From: Candidatus Gastranaerophilales bacterium
GTDB lineage: Bacteria > Cyanobacteriota > Vampirovibrionia > Gastranaerophilales > Gastranaerophilaceae
DNA: 64,000 bases
Assembly: GCA_944324345.1 (NCBI GenBank)
Contig: CALUVT010000001.1
Coordinates: forward strand, 186,001-250,000
Direction: 5' to 3'
Every line of letters begins with the position of its first letter. The stretch's first letter is position 1. The notes below the pieces were generated by a model. That model ran no database searches. It was not told where the DNA came from and worked only from the letters and a program-made list of their open reading frames with translations. The position numbers and the translations under genes were made by a program. Below are positions 20,955 to 31,928 of this stretch, one piece after another.

Positions 20955-23900
20955 TTAAAAATATATGATAAGATTCAAATTGAAATCAGGCGTGTTTATC
21001 TCATTGCTAGGGGGTTTCACGACATTTAGCGTATCTTTAACAGATTGTAACACAATATTATCTATTTCCGTAGAACCACTGCTGGAAATAATTTTGGCAT
21101 CCTGGACATTACCGTCTTTACTTAGTTTTAAGCCTACCTTAACCTGATTTGAATAAGCATACTCAGTTGCAAGCAACAAGTCTGCCGATAGAGATAATTT
21201 TATACTTTTACCGGCCGTTTTTAGGTAATTTTGGATTTTAGGGCTATAGGAAAGAACATCAGGAACATCCCACACCAGTCTTTTTACATCCAGATAAGAT
21301 TCTGATGAAATAGGTTTTTTGTTAGTTATAGTAGTGTTTTTCAGCTCTTTTACCTGTTGTTTTGTTTTTTGAACTTTTTTCACTTGGTTGGTATCTATAG
21401 ATGGAGCATTTGTTTCCAGAATATTTTCTTCTCCGGATTGTTTATTTTTTGGAATGTTAACAATTTCAGATGATACCGGAACGTTGGATTCAATATCAGA
21501 TGTTGCGTCTGATTTGGGTTTTAAGAGGACAAGAGCTGATGCCCCAGCAAAAATAGTTATTAAAGCTGCTGCCGTAATAAGTGTTTTTTTGTCTGGAGCT
21601 TTTTTCTCTCGTAAAAATGCTGCCCCGGGTACTTGATGCTCGACAGATTGGGGGATTTCTCTTGTAAAGTCGGCTGTGTCTATTTCATCCAATTCTGTGT
21701 CAGAAACCGGATCGGTATCGTTAAATAGAACTCCGAGTTTATCATCTTCTAAATTGGAATCGTCTTTTGTATCATCACTGTTTTCGGCAATGTTCAGTAA
21801 ATCATCAATACTCGTATCTATTGTATCTTGTGAGCTTTCAGGTAATTCTTCAACTGTTTGTTCTTCACTATCTGAAGAATTTAGATCTTCTGTTTGAGAA
21901 GAAGACAAAATAGTATCTGAAGAGTTGATGATTGAATCTATATCCGGAATATCTTCTAATTCTTTTTCATCTTCTGATGCGTTATTAGAGTCAGGGATTT
22001 CAATGTTAGTATTATCTTCCGTATTGGTATTAACGGGTATATCCTCATTGTTATCGGATGTGCTATCGGACTCATTTGAGAAGTCTTCCGGTAATTGATT
22101 TTCTACTTCATTGTTATTAGTTTTTTCTTCCTTTGTTCCGAGTAAATCATCAATTTGTGATAGGAGTTCATCTGACGAAATTTCATCTGCATTTTGATTT
22201 TCGCTTGTTTCAATATCTTCAAGCCCTAATTCATCAATATTTATGCTGTTTAGATTTTCTTCCGACATATTTTCTAGTAGGTTTTTTCCGAAAGTTGAGT
22301 TTCCATCAGCAGGTTGATCTTCGTAAGAATTAGATGTATCTGTTTCAGATGATTGATTATTATTTGTTTCTACAATACTTTGTTCATCTGTATCAGATTC
22401 TTCATTTGTTCCTTCATCGTAAGGAATTTCATCAAGTGTTTCGAGCGGGTTTTCGGAAGTTGTATCTGTAATTGAATCCATTGCAGTGCTTGTAACATCT
22501 ATATCGGAATTTTCAGGTAATTGTATATCATCTTGATCAATTTGAAGATTTTCAAGTTGAATTGCAGAATCGTCAAGTTGCAATGACTCATCGAGATTTA
22601 TGTCAGTATTTGGTATATCAAGATTATTTATGTCTAAATCAGGATTATTTTCGATTTCTCCATTTGCAACAATATCTGTGTTTTCATTAGATGTGTCAAC
22701 ATTTTCATCTGTCAAAGAGGAGTCAAAATCTTCAAGAGAAATTGTTTCTTCCCCAACATTATCCGATTGCTCCGGCAAAGTATTTGCAATATCAATATCA
22801 TCTAGTGAAATTTTATTGTCAATTTCATCGATGTAATCCGGGGTTAGTTGTTCAGCAGGGTTTTCTATACCGTCAAATGATATAATTTCTTCGTTGAAAT
22901 TTTCATTGTTTTCAGATTGAATTTTATCAAATTCGGAGGTGTCAATATCATCAAAAGTAATAGTTTGTGCATCTGTAGCATTATCAGTTAAAATATCTTT
23001 GGTTACATTCAAATCCGGATTGTCTAAACTAATCACATTTTCTTCATTGGTTTCGTCGATGTTGTTAATAGGATTTTCTTCTGTGGAATTTTCATTTTCG
23101 AATGTGTTTTCAAGTTCATTATTCTCTGAAAATTCAAGAGAGGTTTCATCATTCATATCAGTGTTATCTGAATGTACATCATCCAGGTTCAAACCGTCAA
23201 AATCTGAAAGAGTTTCAAATTCAAGGTTATCAAAATTTTCTATGCTGTCGAAGGTTTCGACATTTTCCGTTTGAGAAAGTTCTTCAGGTTCAATTTCAAA
23301 ACTACTGTCATTTTCTTTTTTATCTGTATCAATTTCTTTTTTAATTATTTGCGGATCAGTCATTGCTTTATAAGAAAGAGTTTCAAAGTTTTCATATTCA
23401 ATGAATTTGTCCCTAAGTTCCGCACTTTTTGTAAGTTGTTTAATCAAATATTGTTTTTCATTTTCAGAAATGTCATTATCTGCCATTGCCATGATAATTC
23501 TTTCTGAATTTTCAATATCTTGTTCGGTAGTTCCTGAAGTTGTGTTGCCCTGAAAATCCTTAATATATCTTACTAAATCGGAGATTGGGTTTAATTTTTC
23601 CTTTTCGATAAAGTAATAGTCAGCATTTTGATTATTTTTGTTAATTAATCTCGGTTCAAAAAAGCCCAAAAATTTTACGTAAGAAAAATCCTTTGCAAGG
23701 TTTAGAACAAGATATATATCCGGAACAAGATTTAAATTAAAATGTGATTTTGGGATAAAAATTATATTTTCATCAAAGATTACTCTTACGTCAATATGAA
23801 TGTTAGGGAGCATAATATCAGAAATATCAACTTCTTCAAGAATTTTTTTGATTGAGTGAATATTATATATCCCTGACACATCAATATTTTCAGAAGCTAA

Positions 23901-24044
23901 ATATTTTATGGCTAATTCAGCACCTAATGCATTAATGTATGCTCGATTTTTAACGTTCTTATCAGCAAAAGAATTTGCAGCAGCACTAGCATCCAGTTTA
24001 TCTTGATTGTCAATATAAATTATAGTATCTTGTTGAAAACCCAT
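20955..24044 (-). CDS. Large acidic single-span membrane protein with TonB-like C-terminus
   Basis: 1029 residues from the ATG at 24044, chosen because GAGGAG lies 7 nt before it. Residues 1-200 form a globular domain, possibly distantly like cyanobacterial DUF1822 (weak inference). Residues about 210-790 are a very acidic Asp/Glu/Asn/Ser low-complexity region, likely disordered. A single transmembrane helix follows (about 817-841, LITAAALITIFAGASALVLL). The C-terminus (about 940-1029, with VGLKLSKDGNVQDAKIISSS and DNIVLQSVKDT) is TonB-C-like. It probably spans the inner membrane with the acidic part in the cytoplasm. It precedes the sigma-factor gene by 37 bp. Confidence 0.72.
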   Translation of the reverse strand: MGFQQDTIIYIDNQDKLDASAAANSFADKNVKNRAYINALGAELAIKYLASENIDVSGIYNIHSIKKILEEVDISDIMLPNIHIDVRVIFDENIIFIPKSHFNLNLVPDIYLVLNLAKDFSYVKFLGFFEPRLINKNNQNADYYFIEKEKLNPISDLVRYIKDFQGNTTSGTTEQDIENSERIIMAMADNDISENEKQYLIKQLTKSAELRDKFIEYENFETLSYKAMTDPQIIKKEIDTDKKENDSSFEIEPEELSQTENVETFDSIENFDNLEFETLSDFDGLNLDDVHSDNTDMNDETSLEFSENNELENTFENENSTEENPINNIDETNEENVISLDNPDLNVTKDILTDNATDAQTITFDDIDTSEFDKIQSENNENFNEEIISFDGIENPAEQLTPDYIDEIDNKISLDDIDIANTLPEQSDNVGEETISLEDFDSSLTDENVDTSNENTDIVANGEIENNPDLDINNLDIPNTDINLDESLQLDDSAIQLENLQIDQDDIQLPENSDIDVTSTAMDSITDTTSENPLETLDEIPYDEGTNEESDTDEQSIVETNNNQSSETDTSNSYEDQPADGNSTFGKNLLENMSEENLNSINIDELGLEDIETSENQNADEISSDELLSQIDDLLGTKEEKTNNNEVENQLPEDFSNESDSTSDNNEDIPVNTNTEDNTNIEIPDSNNASEDEKELEDIPDIDSIINSSDTILSSSQTEDLNSSDSEEQTVEELPESSQDTIDTSIDDLLNIAENSDDTKDDSNLEDDKLGVLFNDTDPVSDTELDEIDTADFTREIPQSVEHQVPGAAFLREKKAPDKKTLITAAALITIFAGASALVLLKPKSDATSDIESNVPVSSEIVNIPKNKQSGEENILETNAPSIDTNQVKKVQKTKQQVKELKNTTITNKKPISSESYLDVKRLVWDVPDVLSYSPKIQNYLKTAGKSIKLSLSADLLLATEYAYSNQVKVGLKLSKDGNVQDAKIISSSGSTEIDNIVLQSVKDTLNVVKPPSNEINTPDFNLNLIIYF

Positions 24045-24217
24045 CAATATTTCTCCTCTTCTATCTAATAAGATGACACTTAAAAAAAAAATATTCCAAT
24101 TTTTATGTAAACTTTTGTAACAAATATTGAAAAAAGAAATTATTTTAGTCAAAATAAATATATCAGTCGTTTTAAATAAGGCATAAGTAAAAAGTGTGTT
24201 TTAAAAGGAGGTTTCTC

Positions 24218-25768: not shown

Positions 25769-25865
25769 AAGTTTATATTATTATAAATAATATTTGATTT
25801 ACAGTTGCAAAATTAGATAAAAATGGTTTATAATGGTTATTATACCAAACATAAAGGGAGTAATT

Positions 25866-27752
25866 ATGGAAAAGATTGTTAATAAATGTAAAGTCGGGGG
25901 GGGGGCGTTTCAAAGCACTCTTAATGGAGGTTTATTAAATAAGAATTTTTATCAGACATCTCGTTTGGGTTTTACCCTAGCGGAAATGATGGTAGTCATG
26001 TTGATACTAAGTATCATAATGGCAGCAATGGCTCCAGTTATGACAACAAGAAACAAACTAGATCAATCGGCTCCTTGGTCTTGGGCAACTAATGGATCAG
26101 ATGCATATTATGGTTTGGGTGATGCTCAAGTTGCTATGATAGGTCAAGAAGAGGTAAAGCCGACAGATGATGGGGCAAGATTAATAATCAATTCTCCATC
26201 TAGTCTCAATCATATATTGTTTAAAAACGGTGATACAACTAATGGCCGTTTAAATATGTCCAATAGCAATGTTTTTTTAGGTAGTACTGCTACAGGACAA
26301 ACAATAGGTTCATATTCTACAGGATTGGGGCGTAATATAGGCCCAAGCGGTCCTGGTTCTGTATCTGTAGGTTATAACAGTTCAGCCAATGGTAGAAGTT
26401 CTGTATCTGTTGGTCATGCTAATAAATCAACAGTAGACTACACACTTGCCAGTGGTTACAGTAACACTGTATCAGGTTTATATTCAATAGGTTTAGGTAT
26501 AGGAAATACTGTAAGTGGTCAGGATTCTATCGTATTAGGTCGTAGTAATACTGTAAGTACTAATAATTCAATTGGTATAGGCTTGGGAGTAACATCTGCA
26601 GATAATAGTATAGCAATAGGAAATTCGTCTGATGCATCAGGCGATAGTTCAATTGCAATAGGTAATAATGCACAGTCTGATTTAAGCAGTAGTGGAGGTT
26701 ATGGAGCAATAGCAATTGGAATTAATGCAACTGCTTCTGGGGAATCTTCATTTGAAGGGTATTCTGCAGTGGCAATTGGGGCCAATTCCGCTGCTGAAGG
26801 CTATGGGGCAATAGCTATTGGAGATCGTGCTACATCCAATGATTCTGCTATAGCGATAGGTCAGGGGGCTGTTGCTGAAGGAGATTCAGCAATAGCAATT
26901 GGAAATATCGTTTTTGGTAATTTAGGGAGTGTTGATTCTTTTACTACAGAGGCATCGGCAGATTATGCAATAGCTATTGGATTGGGTGCAAAAGCTCGGA
27001 GAGAAAATAACATTGCTATAGGTGTAGAGGCTTGCTCAAATACAAATAGTATGGATGTTGTTTGTATAGGAAATAGCTCAGGCCCAATTTCGATTACTGA
27101 TCCTCTGGCTAATCAAAGCAATATGATGTTTTTGGGAAGAGGATCGACTACAGTTTATATACCCGGGAATTTAGTTGTAGAGGGTGATGTAATATTAGGG
27201 CGTAATGGAAGGGCTCGAGTAACTGCAAGAGCAGTAGATACAAAACGTGGTGATGGTCACATCTCTAATGGGGAGACTGCCACTAGAATGGGTATCTTTA
27301 AAAGTGAAGATTTTAATGGAGAGGATGATAATTTAGATGAGTGGACTTCCGGAAGAACAAACTATAAAGATTTCTTTAATTTTTGGTTATCCGATCGTCG
27401 ATTAAAATATGTAGGCAGCGAAAGTACATCAGGTCTTGATAAAATTCGTCAGTTGAAAGTTTTCAATTACACGTTCAAAAAAGACGAAAAGAAAGTTCCG
27501 CATGTAGGTGTTATAGCTCAAGATTTGCAAAAGGTATTCCCTAATGCAGTGAAAAAAGGTGTAGACGGATTTTTGACAATTCGTATGGAAGATATGTTCT
27601 ATGCAATGATAAATGCTATTAAAGAACTTGATTCTAAGATAAGTACTCTTGAAAAAGAAAACAAAGAGTTAAAAGCAGCTTTAAAACAGCTTCAAGAAAA
27701 CAATAAAAAACAAGAGGCACGTTTAAAAGCTCTTGAAGCAAAAATTAAATAA
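25866..27752 (+). CDS. Prepilin-led surface protein with YadA-like head repeats and S74 intramolecular chaperone
   Basis: 628 residues from the ATG at 25866 (AAGGGAG in front). A long 35-residue leader ends in a prepilin site, G35 before FTLAEMMVVMLILS, with Glu at +5 of the mature protein. Residues about 160-400 are roughly fourteen short YadA/trimeric-adhesin head repeats (SIAIGNxAxAxGxxS type). The end (509-628) is a Peptidase_S74 intramolecular chaperone: SDRRLK provides the Ser/Lys self-cleavage site, and a C-terminal coiled coil follows. No YadA membrane anchor is present. The protein is probably a trimeric, pilus-secreted adhesin. A G10 tract lies in the leader. Confidence 0.87.
   Translation: MEKIVNKCKVGGGAFQSTLNGGLLNKNFYQTSRLGFTLAEMMVVMLILSIIMAAMAPVMTTRNKLDQSAPWSWATNGSDAYYGLGDAQVAMIGQEEVKPTDDGARLIINSPSSLNHILFKNGDTTNGRLNMSNSNVFLGSTATGQTIGSYSTGLGRNIGPSGPGSVSVGYNSSANGRSSVSVGHANKSTVDYTLASGYSNTVSGLYSIGLGIGNTVSGQDSIVLGRSNTVSTNNSIGIGLGVTSADNSIAIGNSSDASGDSSIAIGNNAQSDLSSSGGYGAIAIGINATASGESSFEGYSAVAIGANSAAEGYGAIAIGDRATSNDSAIAIGQGAVAEGDSAIAIGNIVFGNLGSVDSFTTEASADYAIAIGLGAKARRENNIAIGVEACSNTNSMDVVCIGNSSGPISITDPLANQSNMMFLGRGSTTVYIPGNLVVEGDVILGRNGRARVTARAVDTKRGDGHISNGETATRMGIFKSEDFNGEDDNLDEWTSGRTNYKDFFNFWLSDRRLKYVGSESTSGLDKIRQLKVFNYTFKKDEKKVPHVGVIAQDLQKVFPNAVKKGVDGFLTIRMEDMFYAMINAIKELDSKISTLEKENKELKAALKQLQENNKKQEARLKALEAKIK
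25896..25905 (+). repeat. Poly-G tract (G10) within the leader of the prepilin-led gene
   Basis: Ten consecutive G in an AT-rich genome, in codons 11-14 of the gene that starts at 25866. Loss or gain of one G shifts the frame before the prepilin cleavage site, so the tract could switch the gene on and off by slipped-strand mispairing. In the sequence as given the frame is open (ON). Confidence 0.85.
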
Positions 27753-27779
27753 TAATTTTATCTAAAAAAGATAAACTTA

Positions 27780-27838
27780 CCGCTATGCGGTTTTGTTTAT
27801 TCTTTCATTCCTTCCCGCATTAATTGCGGGTTTTTTTT
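27780..27838 (+). terminator. Tandem terminator hairpins after the prepilin-led gene
   Basis: A first hairpin, CCGC/GCGG (27780-27783 with 27787-27790), is extended by ATAAAC/GTTTAT pairing. A second, CCCGCA (27814-27819) with TGCGGG (27825-27830), is followed by eight T (27831-27838) and is a strong terminator. The rest of this gap up to 27962 holds no other feature I can support. Confidence 0.87.
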
Positions 27839-27962: not shown

Positions 27963-29150
27963 ATGATTAATCAAAAAATCAACTCAATAGATTATAAAGA
28001 ACTGTATTCACAGTATAACTGGTTTGCGAAAACATATCCGCCAGTAATACAGGCTGCTTGTGATGAGTTTTTTCTCCCGGGATTTAAGTTTATTTTAGCC
28101 GGAATCAGTAAAAATATTAATACTTTAATGGATAAAGATGCTTATTTTGTAACTAAAATCCGTATAGACAAACTTCATGACATGTTTTTTAGAACATCTG
28201 AAAGAGCTGTTGGAATTATACTTGACAAAATTCTGGGTAAACCAAATTCCAAATTTAACTTGAACAAGTTAACAGATCTGGAAGCTAAAATAATAACAGC
28301 ATTTAATGATTACATGTTTAATATGACTTCTCAATTTCTTTCCCCTCCCCCGCCAACCTTGAAAAGAACCAATTTTGATGTCGTGCATTTGAATTTTTTG
28401 ATAAAGGATATTGAGAAAAATGAGACTGCAAAGTTTATAATAACTTTGCCTGAGGTTCTTCTAAACCCTGAAACAGTAGTTTCCCAAGGTGATAAATTTG
28501 ATTATGGAGATTTTTCGACAAGTGTTATTGATGTTTCTGTAAAAGTAGGAAGCACAAGATTTAAGCTAATAGATGTAAAAAATATTGAAGTAGATGATAT
28601 TGTTGTTTTTGATAACAGTGATATCAACAAAATGGTTATAAAATTTAAGGATTATGAAAAAGAAATAAATTTGAACCCGAATTTAGGACTGGTTATACCG
28701 GTGGAAGACGAAGGAGGAAGTGATAATATGGCAGGAGAAAGTACTAATCTTTGGGATAGTATTGAAGTCGAGATGAGTGCACAATTTGATACGGTAAAAA
28801 TTACCTTAGGTGAACTTAAAAAAATAGAAGAAGGATTAGTAGTTGATCTCACTTCTATATATGATAATAAAGTTACTTTGAGTGTAGAAAACAAGCCTAT
28901 AGCAAAGGGTGAGCTGGTAATTGTTAATGACAGATACGGTGTAAAAATTGAAGAGGTTATTGCACAAACAAATTCAAATGACAGCAAAGAACTACAGCCA
29001 GCTCAGCAGGATAATTTTGATGATGAATTTAAGCCTTTTGATGAAAATGATTCCGAAACGCAAATGCCTCAGGCAACAGAAGGAAATAACAATAATGAAG
29101 AGGATGAATTCGATTACAGTGATTTTGAATTAGAGGATGAAGATATTTAG
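27963..29150 (+). CDS. FliM/FliN-like flagellar switch protein with two SpoA domains
   Basis: 395 residues. The N-terminal 130 residues are helical and resemble the middle of FliM (LTDLEAKIITAFNDYMF). Two SpoA (surface presentation/FliMN) domains follow: about 175-245 (VIDVSVKVGSTRFKLIDVKN) and about 262-340 (VKITLGELKKIEEGLVVDL, then NKPIAKGELVIVNDRYGVKI). The last 55 residues are acidic and disordered. Proteins of this kind build the flagellar C-ring and bind FliG or export proteins. It heads a cluster with fliO, fliP, fliQ and fliR. A FliM-FliN fusion or a YscQ-like protein are alternatives. Confidence 0.8.
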   Translation: MINQKINSIDYKELYSQYNWFAKTYPPVIQAACDEFFLPGFKFILAGISKNINTLMDKDAYFVTKIRIDKLHDMFFRTSERAVGIILDKILGKPNSKFNLNKLTDLEAKIITAFNDYMFNMTSQFLSPPPPTLKRTNFDVVHLNFLIKDIEKNETAKFIITLPEVLLNPETVVSQGDKFDYGDFSTSVIDVSVKVGSTRFKLIDVKNIEVDDIVVFDNSDINKMVIKFKDYEKEINLNPNLGLVIPVEDEGGSDNMAGESTNLWDSIEVEMSAQFDTVKITLGELKKIEEGLVVDLTSIYDNKVTLSVENKPIAKGELVIVNDRYGVKIEEVIAQTNSNDSKELQPAQQDNFDDEFKPFDENDSETQMPQATEGNNNNEEDEFDYSDFELEDEDI

Positions 29151-29175
29151 AAATTTCTAAACAGGGGATAGAAAA

Positions 29176-29547
29176 ATGAGCGGATACTTATTAAATTTTA
29201 TAGTATATACAGCGGCAATGGTCGGGGTTATTTTTCTGGCTGTTTTTGTATACAAAAAATTTTCTTATATCAGTGTTTCAAAATCTAAATTTTTGGATAT
29301 AGAAGATTGCATAAGTCTGGGTCCAAGAAAAAATTTATATGTAGTTCGTGCAGGCAGGGAGCATTTTTTAGTTGCTTCTGATATAGACAAAACTTCACTA
29401 ATATCAAAACTCGATATAAGCGATCAAGGAGTCCAAACTCCAGTTTTGGAAAATTCTCAAAGTGTTGATGATATTCCTTCGATTGTGAACATAAACAGGG
29501 CAAGTCAACCAAGAAAAGTTTTTAAAAACTTAATGGATAAATTATAA
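29176..29547 (+). CDS. fliO: Flagellar biosynthesis protein FliO
   Basis: 123 residues with one N-terminal transmembrane helix (about 5-27) and a cytoplasmic tail with DIEDCISLGPRKNLYVVRAGREHFLV, the conserved FliO pattern (LG.KK.L.lV..g...LLVG). FliO helps FliP assemble into the export gate. It lies 25 bp after the switch protein and 15 bp before fliP. RBS AGGGGA. Confidence 0.85.
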   Translation: MSGYLLNFIVYTAAMVGVIFLAVFVYKKFSYISVSKSKFLDIEDCISLGPRKNLYVVRAGREHFLVASDIDKTSLISKLDISDQGVQTPVLENSQSVDDIPSIVNINRASQPRKVFKNLMDKL

Positions 29548-29562
29548 AAAAGGAAAATTATA

Positions 29563-30204
29563 ATGGATACGATTATAAAAGATATGAATCCGGTACTACA
29601 GATGTTAATATTGATGACGGTTTTTTCATTATTACCGTTAGTATTTTGCTGTATGACAAGCTTTTTACGTTTTGTAATAGTTTTTTCAATGTTAAAAACA
29701 GCTTTGGGGACTCAGCAGGTTCCGCCTTCAATTGTAATTGTTGGTTTAGCAATGATATTAACATTTTATACAATGGGTTCTACTTTCCAAAAAATGTATG
29801 ATCTTGGATCTGTCCCTTATCATAAAAATCAAAACATAATAGAGGCGATTAATGAAGGTTCAAAGCCGCTAAAAGAATTTATGATGAAGCAAACCAGAGA
29901 AAGTGATTTAGCATTTTTTGTGGAAATGTCAAAAGGTACGGCCCCGAAAAGTCCTGATGAGATTACGGTATGGCAGGTTGCACCGGCTTTTATAATAAGT
30001 GAATTAAAAACGTCTTTTGAAATCGGTTTTATAATATTTGTACCGTTTATTGTTTTGGATTTGGTTGTGGCTAACATACTTTTGGCATTAGGTATGTTTA
30101 TGTTATCTCCAACGATTATATCCCTTCCGTTTAAGTTGTTAATATTCATTGCCGTTGATGGATGGGCATTAATTGTTCAGGGGCTTGTGACAAGTTATAA
30201 CTGA
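29563..30204 (+). CDS. fliP: Flagellar export gate protein FliP
   Basis: 213 residues, an integral membrane protein of the type III export gate. The family signature is present: SFLRFVIVFSMLKTALGTQQVPPSIVIVGLA near the N-terminus and FIISELKTSFEIGFIIFVPF later, plus a hydrophobic C-terminus. It is about 30 residues shorter than typical FliP and lacks the usual cleaved N-terminal signal, beginning directly before the first membrane helix. RBS AAAGGAAAA. Confidence 0.95.
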   Translation: MDTIIKDMNPVLQMLILMTVFSLLPLVFCCMTSFLRFVIVFSMLKTALGTQQVPPSIVIVGLAMILTFYTMGSTFQKMYDLGSVPYHKNQNIIEAINEGSKPLKEFMMKQTRESDLAFFVEMSKGTAPKSPDEITVWQVAPAFIISELKTSFEIGFIIFVPFIVLDLVVANILLALGMFMLSPTIISLPFKLLIFIAVDGWALIVQGLVTSYN

Positions 30205-30313
30205 CGTTGATTATGAATATGATTGATAAAATCTGTTAGAAAATACAAGTAATAAAGAGGATTGCAAGGATAAGGCGAGTTTTTTACCAAACTTTGCAGA
30301 AAGGATAGAAAAA

Positions 30314-30802
30314 ATGGAAGTTTTAATTGAATATTTAGCAAAAGGTTTTCTTTTAATGCTTGCAATTTCTATGCCTTGTGTTCTTGTCGCTGCAGGTATA
30401 GGTTTGGTTGTCGGGATATTGCAGGCAGTTACTCAGGTTCAGGAACAGACTATTGCCGCTGCCCCAAAAATCTTGGGTGTATTTTTGGTTATTATAATTG
30501 GCGGGATTGGATTTATTAATATGCTGAGAGGCTTTGTTACAGAAGGTTTTGCAATGGCCTTTAATCTTGTCTCAAAAAATGATGCTTATGTTTTACCTGC
30601 TGATTATTACAAGTATACCTCTCCTTTTGAACATGAAATGTCAGATAGATTCAAAAACCAGCCATCAATAAATGAATTAATGAAAAATCCGGGTAAGGTT
30701 CCATATATTAATAATCAGCAGAAGACAAAGTATTTGCCAAGTCCTCAAACTCCTATGCCAAAACCTGATTTTGTAGAAACTAATACAATCCTTGGAAGGT
30801 AG
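30314..30802 (+). CDS. fliQ: Flagellar export gate protein FliQ with a C-terminal extension
   Basis: 162 residues. The first 90 match FliQ: two transmembrane helices separated by the QAVTQVQEQTIAAAPKIL loop typical of the family. FliQ is normally about 89 residues; here a further 70 residues, polar and Pro/Lys/Asn-rich with no known domain, follow. This tail would lie in the cytoplasm or periplasm depending on topology. A 109-bp gap precedes the gene with an AAGGAT ribosome site. Confidence 0.92.
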   Translation: MEVLIEYLAKGFLLMLAISMPCVLVAAGIGLVVGILQAVTQVQEQTIAAAPKILGVFLVIIIGGIGFINMLRGFVTEGFAMAFNLVSKNDAYVLPADYYKYTSPFEHEMSDRFKNQPSINELMKNPGKVPYINNQQKTKYLPSPQTPMPKPDFVETNTILGR

Positions 30803-30806
30803 GGAA

Positions 30807-31148
30807 GTGAATAAATTTTTCTTATCAGCTCTTATAATGTGTACAACTCTTCAGGCTTATGCTTTTGAGGATTATATTATAACGAGTGATAAACCCGTAA
30901 AATCTGTTTATTCTTCAAATTCTTCCGTAGTTTCTGTTACTCCTTTTTTCACTATAGATAATGCTAAGAATATTATTTTAGCAAAAGCATTAAATTCTGG
31001 TAGGGCTGTGGTTATAATAAAAACAGAAGATGGGGAACAGGCTGTAAATGTTAAAGTCAGCAAAGATAAAACAGTTCTCTCCCAAGAGGATGGGCTTTCA
31101 TATTTCAAACTTGATATTCCTGATGATTTGCCAAGGGAGGAAAAGTAG
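30807..31148 (+). CDS. Small secreted protein resembling secretin N-terminal/pilus-assembly domain
   Basis: 113 residues from a GTG at 30807, with GGAAGG 7 nt in front; an in-frame TTG at 30792 is an alternative. A signal peptide (VNKFFLSALIMCTTLQAYA) is followed by a single all-beta domain with SGRAVVIIKTEDGEQAVNVKV, like the N-terminal domain of pilus secretins (CpaC/RcpA type). Standard flagellar clusters do not carry such a gene between fliQ and fliR. It is probably periplasmic; function unknown. Confidence 0.65.
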   Translation: MNKFFLSALIMCTTLQAYAFEDYIITSDKPVKSVYSSNSSVVSVTPFFTIDNAKNIILAKALNSGRAVVIIKTEDGEQAVNVKVSKDKTVLSQEDGLSYFKLDIPDDLPREEK

Positions 31149-31928
31149 TTGGATCAGATTATTACAGAGTTGATGAAGATGTTTCCGATGCTGAATGCCT
31201 ATCTTGCTGCAGGGATTTTTATATTTGCAAGGTTTTTGGGATTTTTTAGAATGGCTCCTGTATTTAACCGCAAAGAAATTCCCGGGATGGTTAAATTAAG
31301 CCTTGCATTAATCTTGTCTATTGTATTGACTTGTGTTGTAAAACCTGATGTGACAATAATTAAGGAATCTTTTGTTCTTTCTATTGTTTTAAATATGGTG
31401 GTTGGAGCAATGCTAGGTTATGTTGCACAATTAATACTATTGGCGATAGATGCAGGCGGTGATATGGTAAATATGCAGATGGGACTTTCTTCTGCAATGG
31501 TTTTGGATCCTACAACATCTTCGCAAGTTTCAATTGTCGGAAAGTGTTTTTCATTTCTCGGACTTTTGATATTTATTCAGTTAGGCGGAATTTATTGGAT
31601 ATTGCATGCTTTTATGAGAAGTTTTGAGATATTTCCGCTTGATGCGACTGTTATACCGTTAGCAAAACTTGTTAATCTTGATTATATGGTCGAATTATCT
31701 TCAAATGTATTGTTTATGGGACTTCAAATTGCATCCCCGATATTGCTTGCAACTTTGGGGCAGGATATAATTCTTGGGGTTATCTCGAAAACGGCACCAC
31801 AAGTTAACGTTTTCCAGTTAAGCTTTCTTTTCAAGCCTGTTTTGGGAGCAGCTATAATGGTTTGGATTCTACCAATGCTTGTAAATATCATTTCTGATTA
31901 CTTTTTATCATTTGCTCATATTATCTAA
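31149..31928 (+). CDS. fliR: Flagellar export gate protein FliR
   Basis: 259 residues with about six transmembrane helices. The start is a TTG at 31149 directly after the preceding stop, with GGGAGG 9 nt before it. Family features are FARFLGFFRMAPVFNRKEIP, LSLALILSIVLT, the MQMGLSSAMVLDP loop, and ILATLGQDIILGVISKTAPQ near the end. FliR closes the FliP5Q4R1 export gate. flhB and flhA do not follow, so the locus is split from the rest of the export apparatus. Confidence 0.93.
   Translation: MDQIITELMKMFPMLNAYLAAGIFIFARFLGFFRMAPVFNRKEIPGMVKLSLALILSIVLTCVVKPDVTIIKESFVLSIVLNMVVGAMLGYVAQLILLAIDAGGDMVNMQMGLSSAMVLDPTTSSQVSIVGKCFSFLGLLIFIQLGGIYWILHAFMRSFEIFPLDATVIPLAKLVNLDYMVELSSNVLFMGLQIASPILLATLGQDIILGVISKTAPQVNVFQLSFLFKPVLGAAIMVWILPMLVNIISDYFLSFAHII

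Follow-up and report, generated by a model that had tools for sequence, protein, structure and literature searches.

The window analysed here, a 64-kb stretch of DNA from a Gastranaerophilales bacterium, a gut-dwelling relative of the cyanobacteria, carries on its plus strand an open reading frame for a 628-residue protein, the parts and flanking signals of which are listed in Table 1. Beyond the gene lies a flagellar cluster (27963-31928), comprising a FliN/FliM-like SpoA protein, FliO, FliP, a FliQ-like open reading frame assigned by eye, and FliR; on its other side, the minus strand encodes a large acidic protein of low complexity whose C-terminus is TonB-like (20955-24152). A link to the adjoining flagellar genes was considered and dropped, as terminator-like hairpins intervene and a paralogue of the prepilin gene sits elsewhere.

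Table 1. Coordinates of features at the prepilin locus, numbered from the first base of the window
Feature	Position	Strand	Remark
Promoter-like site TTGCAA-18-TATAAT	25805..25834	+	Weak: number of such sites in the region not above shuffled expectation
CDS of S74/YadA-head modular prepilin, 628 aa	25866..27752	+	GGAG ribosome site immediately upstream
Leader peptide, predicted cut after G35	25866..25970	+	Unrelated in paralogue
G10 homopolymer within leader	25896..25905	+	+1 or -1 puts prepilin out of frame
Pilin N-terminal helix FTLAEMMVVMLILSIIMAAMAP (E5, P22)	25971..26036	+	
Mature N-terminal module	25971..26270	+	12 of 99 codons differ from paralogue
YadA-type head repeats, residues ~145-395	26298..27050	+	
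Fibre neck and predicted new tip, residues 396-508	27051..27389	+	Unrelated between paralogues
S74 intramolecular chaperone, S509/K514 dyad	27390..27632	+	Paralogue near-identity starts exactly at Ser509 codon
C-terminal helix, coiled-coil-like, residues 574-627	27585..27746	+	
Two terminator-like hairpins between prepilin gene and fli genes	27779..27830	+	

Domain content and predicted fold

The three modules that an earlier note had read from the letters of this DNA all exceed their Pfam cut-offs, namely (i) N_methyl at residues 34-55 (26.1 bits against a cut-off of 21.2); (ii) YadA_head (89.6 bits against 25, with seven significant stretches); and (iii) Peptidase_S74 at residues 509-563 (57.9 bits against 22). 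The GFxxxE prepilin domain TIGR02532 of NCBIfam likewise exceeds its cut-off. The N-terminus has the makeup of a class III signal, with a polar leader that ends in Gly, a Glu at +5, a hydrophobic stretch of about 20 residues, and the N_methyl profile, and G35 stands before FTLAE just as the note had placed it. The same is true of SDRRLK at residues 509-514, which supplies the SDxxxK dyad of the C-terminal S74 domain. Its figure of about 14 head repeats sits well with a loose pattern, which counts 15, and less well with Pfam, which scores seven stretches. The protein combines an N-terminal IPR012902 motif with a domain lacking pilus specificity, which is the definition of a modular pilin, and it also bears the YadA-type head of type Vc adhesins. 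Moreover, no YadA_anchor occurs among its Pfam matches, as the note had observed, and the C-terminus is made up of S74 and a helix; identification as a trimeric autotransporter was therefore rejected.

Sequence relatives of solved structure include the heads of YadA (1p9h, 1.6e-7) and BpaC, a phage tail fibre that matches residues 498-596, and the ICA domain of MyRF, which matches residues 519-603. An AlphaFold model of the monomer (mean pLDDT 57, with much of the head region at ~70-92) shows a helix at residues 38-54, a β head, and the C-terminal helix at 574-627, and its nearest folds are the heads of the trimeric autotransporters BpaC, CbpF, BoaA, and YadA. The S74 part is not confidently modelled, which might be explained by the prediction of an obligate trimer as a monomer. 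After the pilin helix, no globular pilin β-sheet domain was recognised, the low-confidence model showing only the short helix at 38-54.

S74 prepilins and the paralogue mosaic

The genome (1.76 Mb in 5 contigs) encodes exactly two S74 proteins, to which its YadA_head matches are confined. The second, at L043:6840-8717, has the same three parts, and directly 3′ of it (L043:8751-10451) lies a pair of MotA/ExbB-like and OmpA/MotB-like genes. S74 matches were found in 72 of the 146 genomes of the family, at 1-12 per genome, and in 99 of the 192 genomes of the order. A prepilin N-terminus begins 72 of the 73 complete S74 reading frames within the order (70 by pattern, and L165 and L166 by eye); the sample consists mostly of best profile matches, with prepilins called by pattern, and these fractions are approximate. 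In all, 74 complete frames were fetched, and the two that are not prepilins are a short frame in L087 and L167, which comes from outside the order. The residue preceding the predicted cut is Ala in 50 S74 prepilins and Gly in 21; Glu+5 is fixed in every matched start, as the search pattern demands, and Pro22 is present in 69 of 71. The SDxxxK motif is kept in 82 of 83 S74 reading frames, the remaining one having SNxxxK. Since YadA-type repeats are numerous in the host's genus and few in several other genera, the pilin helix and S74 are the constant parts and the middle is the variable one. The search across genomes that the earlier note had called for returned a paralogue in the same genome and scores of relatives; the architecture is not a product of chance, because these share it, and judged by their sequences it is typical of S74 proteins in Gastranaerophilales rather than the oddity of one gene.

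In PHROGs, the head and S74 parts match phage tail fibres, proteins in which S74 is common; T4-like fibres are about 41% identical over 84 residues, and the gene might on this ground be a captured or decaying tail-fibre gene with no role at the cell surface. We consider this highly improbable: no phage genes were recognised adjoining the gene, which also led us to reject a prophage origin, and the near-universal prepilin start, the conserved catalytic motif, and the recurrence of S74 genes in about half of the family's genomes all speak against decay or capture.

Comparison of the two paralogues revealed abrupt steps in DNA identity. The leaders are 52% identical, against 49% for shuffled sequence, and identity is 100% over the 90 bases that open the mature protein; it is 50% over the 45 bases leading up to Ser509 (56% when shuffled), 96-99% within S74, and 52% after it. 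The steps coincide with the prepilin cut (52% to 100%) and with the Ser509 codon (50% to 96%), and two multi-copy relatives show the same steps in softer form. Among the 81 S74 codons there are only three synonymous changes and one non-synonymous change, which argues for recent homogenisation of the ends or swapping of the middles, and on the same count selection alone was rejected as the source of the S74 likeness. On the predicted maturation, the variable part is the one that would stay exposed, and the alike part would be removed after folding.

Poly-G tracts in prepilin leaders

The leader contains a feature absent from the earlier note, a G10 tract that is the only G/C run of seven or more in the window (33% GC). 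It lies within the reading frame and exceeds the threshold of at least nine used for poly-G tracts (PMC5953494), and a change of one base in either direction loses the frame. A search of the whole genome gave 103 overlapping 9-G matches, representing about 50 separate tracts, against an estimated ~0.3 expected under an independent-base model at this GC content. Among the 68 N_methyl matches in the genome, a G10-11 or C10 tract precedes the mature start by 34-137 bases in 44, and each of these 44 keeps an unbroken prepilin frame reaching back across the tract. Upstream of each tract, usually 21-30 bases away and with conserved flanks, are a ribosome site and a start codon, and in every one of the 44 genes these are joined to the prepilin at one tract length, whereas shuffled flanks gave a mean of 0.3 genes and a maximum of 2. 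The joining length is 11 in 40 genes, 10 in two, and 12 in two. At their present lengths, most tract-bearing prepilin genes are OFF, one base out of frame. Four have a ribosome site and are ON, namely the gene described here (G10), C2:443154 (C10), and C2:476678 and C2:101082 (both G11); two more (C3:247039 and C3:27429) have an ATG in frame but lack a ribosome site. The leaders of C2:101082 (G11, ON) and C2:34777 (G10, OFF) are nearly alike within this one genome. Three further tracts (L233, L234, and L236) precede prepilins that the Pfam search did not catch, and that of L234 is G11 and ON. Other tract-bearing prepilin loci include C1:442280 and C2:210150; a further G10 tract lies at C3:52088, within L235 (C3:51100-53100).

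The pattern extends to relatives. At least 146 prepilin N-termini occur in the 2.2-Mb genome of one of them, G171 (MAG BRZ_EH bin71), and of 30 examined there, 22 have tracts, 21 OFF and one ON. While homopolymer assembly error is a caveat, G171, whose contig names are SPAdes-style, repeats the same tract pattern. Poly-G tracts are present in 126 of the 146 family genomes, counted wherever in the genome they lie, and ten S74 prepilins of relatives have a tract of length 10 or 11 near the leader, four of them ON. The C10 elements (e.g., at C1:467256, C1:536193, and C3:241884) look like the G10 element TTC-G10-CAATTCTAAGCTT inserted the other way round, and this DNA element may therefore be functional in either orientation.

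By analogy with Neisseria pilC (in-frame G9-20; PMC5953494) and with Campylobacter (PMC8355987), in both of which tracts of G9-G11 in the reading frame switch genes ON and OFF by frameshift, slipped-strand phase variation would be the simplest switch mechanism. The clustering of tract lengths at 10 counts against a phase switch. Nearly all tracts have a length of exactly 10, and most genes would come into frame with just one more base, as would be expected if RNA polymerase or the ribosome slipped on a fixed G10 to yield a fixed in-frame fraction of product. We hold such programmed slippage to be unlikely, as a tract of 10 already puts the gene described here and C2:443154 in frame, and tracts of 11 occur in some genes; further, mutation bias alone holds Campylobacter tracts at G9-G10 (PMC8355987), and a bias of that kind could explain the uniform length here. 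The G10 run in the leader probably acts as a phase switch that turns the gene on and off, as do the tracts in 40 or more further pilin genes of this genome, and being OFF at 10 would leave most members of the repertoire silent.

Pathogenic Neisseria have ~15-19 poly-G tracts per genome with mixed functions (PMC5953494), in contrast to the ~50 found here, nearly all of which lie in prepilin leaders; tract-bearing genes here outnumber those tracts, which bears on surface variation in the gut. From its sequence, the pilin repertoire, with the trimeric adhesin included, looks unusually large and phase-variable. On balance, we think there is a fair probability that gut Gastranaerophilales maintain a very large contingency repertoire of pilins (68 here), for the most part controlled by one G10/C10 element in the leader and with most members OFF at a time, and that this repertoire includes phage-fibre-like trimeric adhesins that are matured by a self-cleaving S74 chaperone and whose tips paralogues exchange at the cleavage site. 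The predictions about the switch can be tested in existing gut metagenomic reads without culture.

Proposed assembly and comparison with known systems

Omp85 proteins, a single PilQ-type secretin, and a PilB-like ATPase and PilC-like platform grouped with the secretin at one locus are present in the genome, from which we take the host to be diderm and to possess a type IV pilus or a related machine; pilA, B, C, T, and D have been reported for a termite relative (PMC5877343). The earlier note's picture of a trimeric adhesin on a pilus-like anchor is strengthened by E5, P22, the SDxxxK dyad, this locus, and the outer membrane, while trimerisation, cleavage, and display on a pilus are the parts that we infer. 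We somewhat favour the view that the gene product is a phase-variable trimeric modular minor pilin acting as an adhesin, which would be made as follows: (i) G10 keeps the ATG at 25866 in frame through the tract (ON), and slippage by one G would turn the gene OFF; (ii) the class III signal would insert the prepilin in the inner membrane, leaving its body on the periplasmic side, and prepilin peptidase would cut after G35; (iii) the C-terminal S74 chaperone would gather three chains, the YadA-type head and neck folding as a trimeric β structure; (iv) a correct trimer would activate Ser509/Lys514, removing the chaperone and exposing the fibre tip, with the N-terminal base anchored; and (v) the pilus machine would take up the three pilin helices, probably at the tip as for CofB and TcpB, and the fibre would exit via the PilQ-type secretin and attach to surfaces of the host or of microbes.

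Uptake into a filament is unproven, as the stretch that follows the helix bears no likeness to a globular pilin domain. This short post-helix region, together with the hindrance that bulky fibres could pose to packing within a filament body, would suit a trimer that stays outside the pilus, its three class III helices serving only as inner-membrane anchors and its head lying in the periplasm or reaching through the wall. That arrangement strikes us as possible but doubtful. E5, which filament assembly requires, is kept in all prepilin starts matched; with an outer membrane in the way, an adhesin anchored only in the inner membrane would have little chance of meeting its ligand; the genome has a secretin and PilB/PilC; and ordinary prepilins have the same switch element. 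For the minor-pilin reading, CofB and TcpB offer a precedent, being likewise large minor pilins that form homotrimers and are thought to sit at the pilus tip (PMC8179133, PMC10191384). Their trimers are built by their own β domains, however, and they have neither an S74 chaperone nor a YadA-type head.

Trimeric autotransporters (type Vc) have their membrane anchor at the C-terminus and their tip at the N-terminus. The head repeats of YadA and BpaC are like those of the 628-residue protein in sequence and fold, but it has no C-terminal barrel anchor of their kind and its polarity is reversed, with the N-terminus as base; going by domain order, the fibre would be oriented like a phage tail fibre, with a YadA-like head mounted the other way round.

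The combination, which the earlier note did not know as described, is in part on record: the prepilin-S74 pair (IPR012902-IPR030392) is listed by Raynaud et al. (2021) among the most frequent modular pilins, without a YadA head and with S74 read as a peptidase (PMC8179133). The modular pilins PilB and PilC of Streptococcus sanguinis likewise join a short pilin N-terminus to a foreign functional module, but the excerpted text of that paper mentions none of the YadA heads, trimer chaperoning, or poly-G switch seen or proposed here. Excerpts on the S74 group of Bdellovibrio MAT proteins (PMC10769870) describe phage-like trimeric fibres with SDxxxK, a self-cleaved chaperone, variable C-terminal tips, and many paralogues, and Bd3182 self-cleaves at the SDxxxK serine S782. 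By the description in those excerpts, these proteins are set apart by a signal peptide followed immediately by a conserved, β-rich N-terminal domain of ~130 residues, and no prepilin anchor or phase switch is reported there, unlike here. In the open-licence literature, we found no paper combining Peptidase_S74 with prepilin; none combining trimeric autotransporter, type IV pilin, and S74; and none joining Gastranaerophil- with phase vari-. As far as these searches reach, what is new is (i) the three-module form with a YadA head, and the reading of S74 as a pilin trimer chaperone; (ii) the near-exclusive prepilin context of S74 in Gastranaerophilales; and (iii) the steps in paralogue identity at the two predicted cleavage sites, along with a poly-G leader switch that the prepilin genes have in common. 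If true, the scheme would correct the peptidase reading of prepilin-S74 proteins and would join pilin presentation, phage-style folding and chaperone removal, and poly-G phase variation in one gut-bacterial surface system.

In L073-L081 (genera g7 and g25) and L164-L166, two or three different S74 prepilins adjoin one another, often head to tail and nearly overlapping, and at least three S74 copies occur in nearly all g7 genomes searched and in five of five from g25. Neighbouring S74 prepilins of different kinds could form hetero-trimers.
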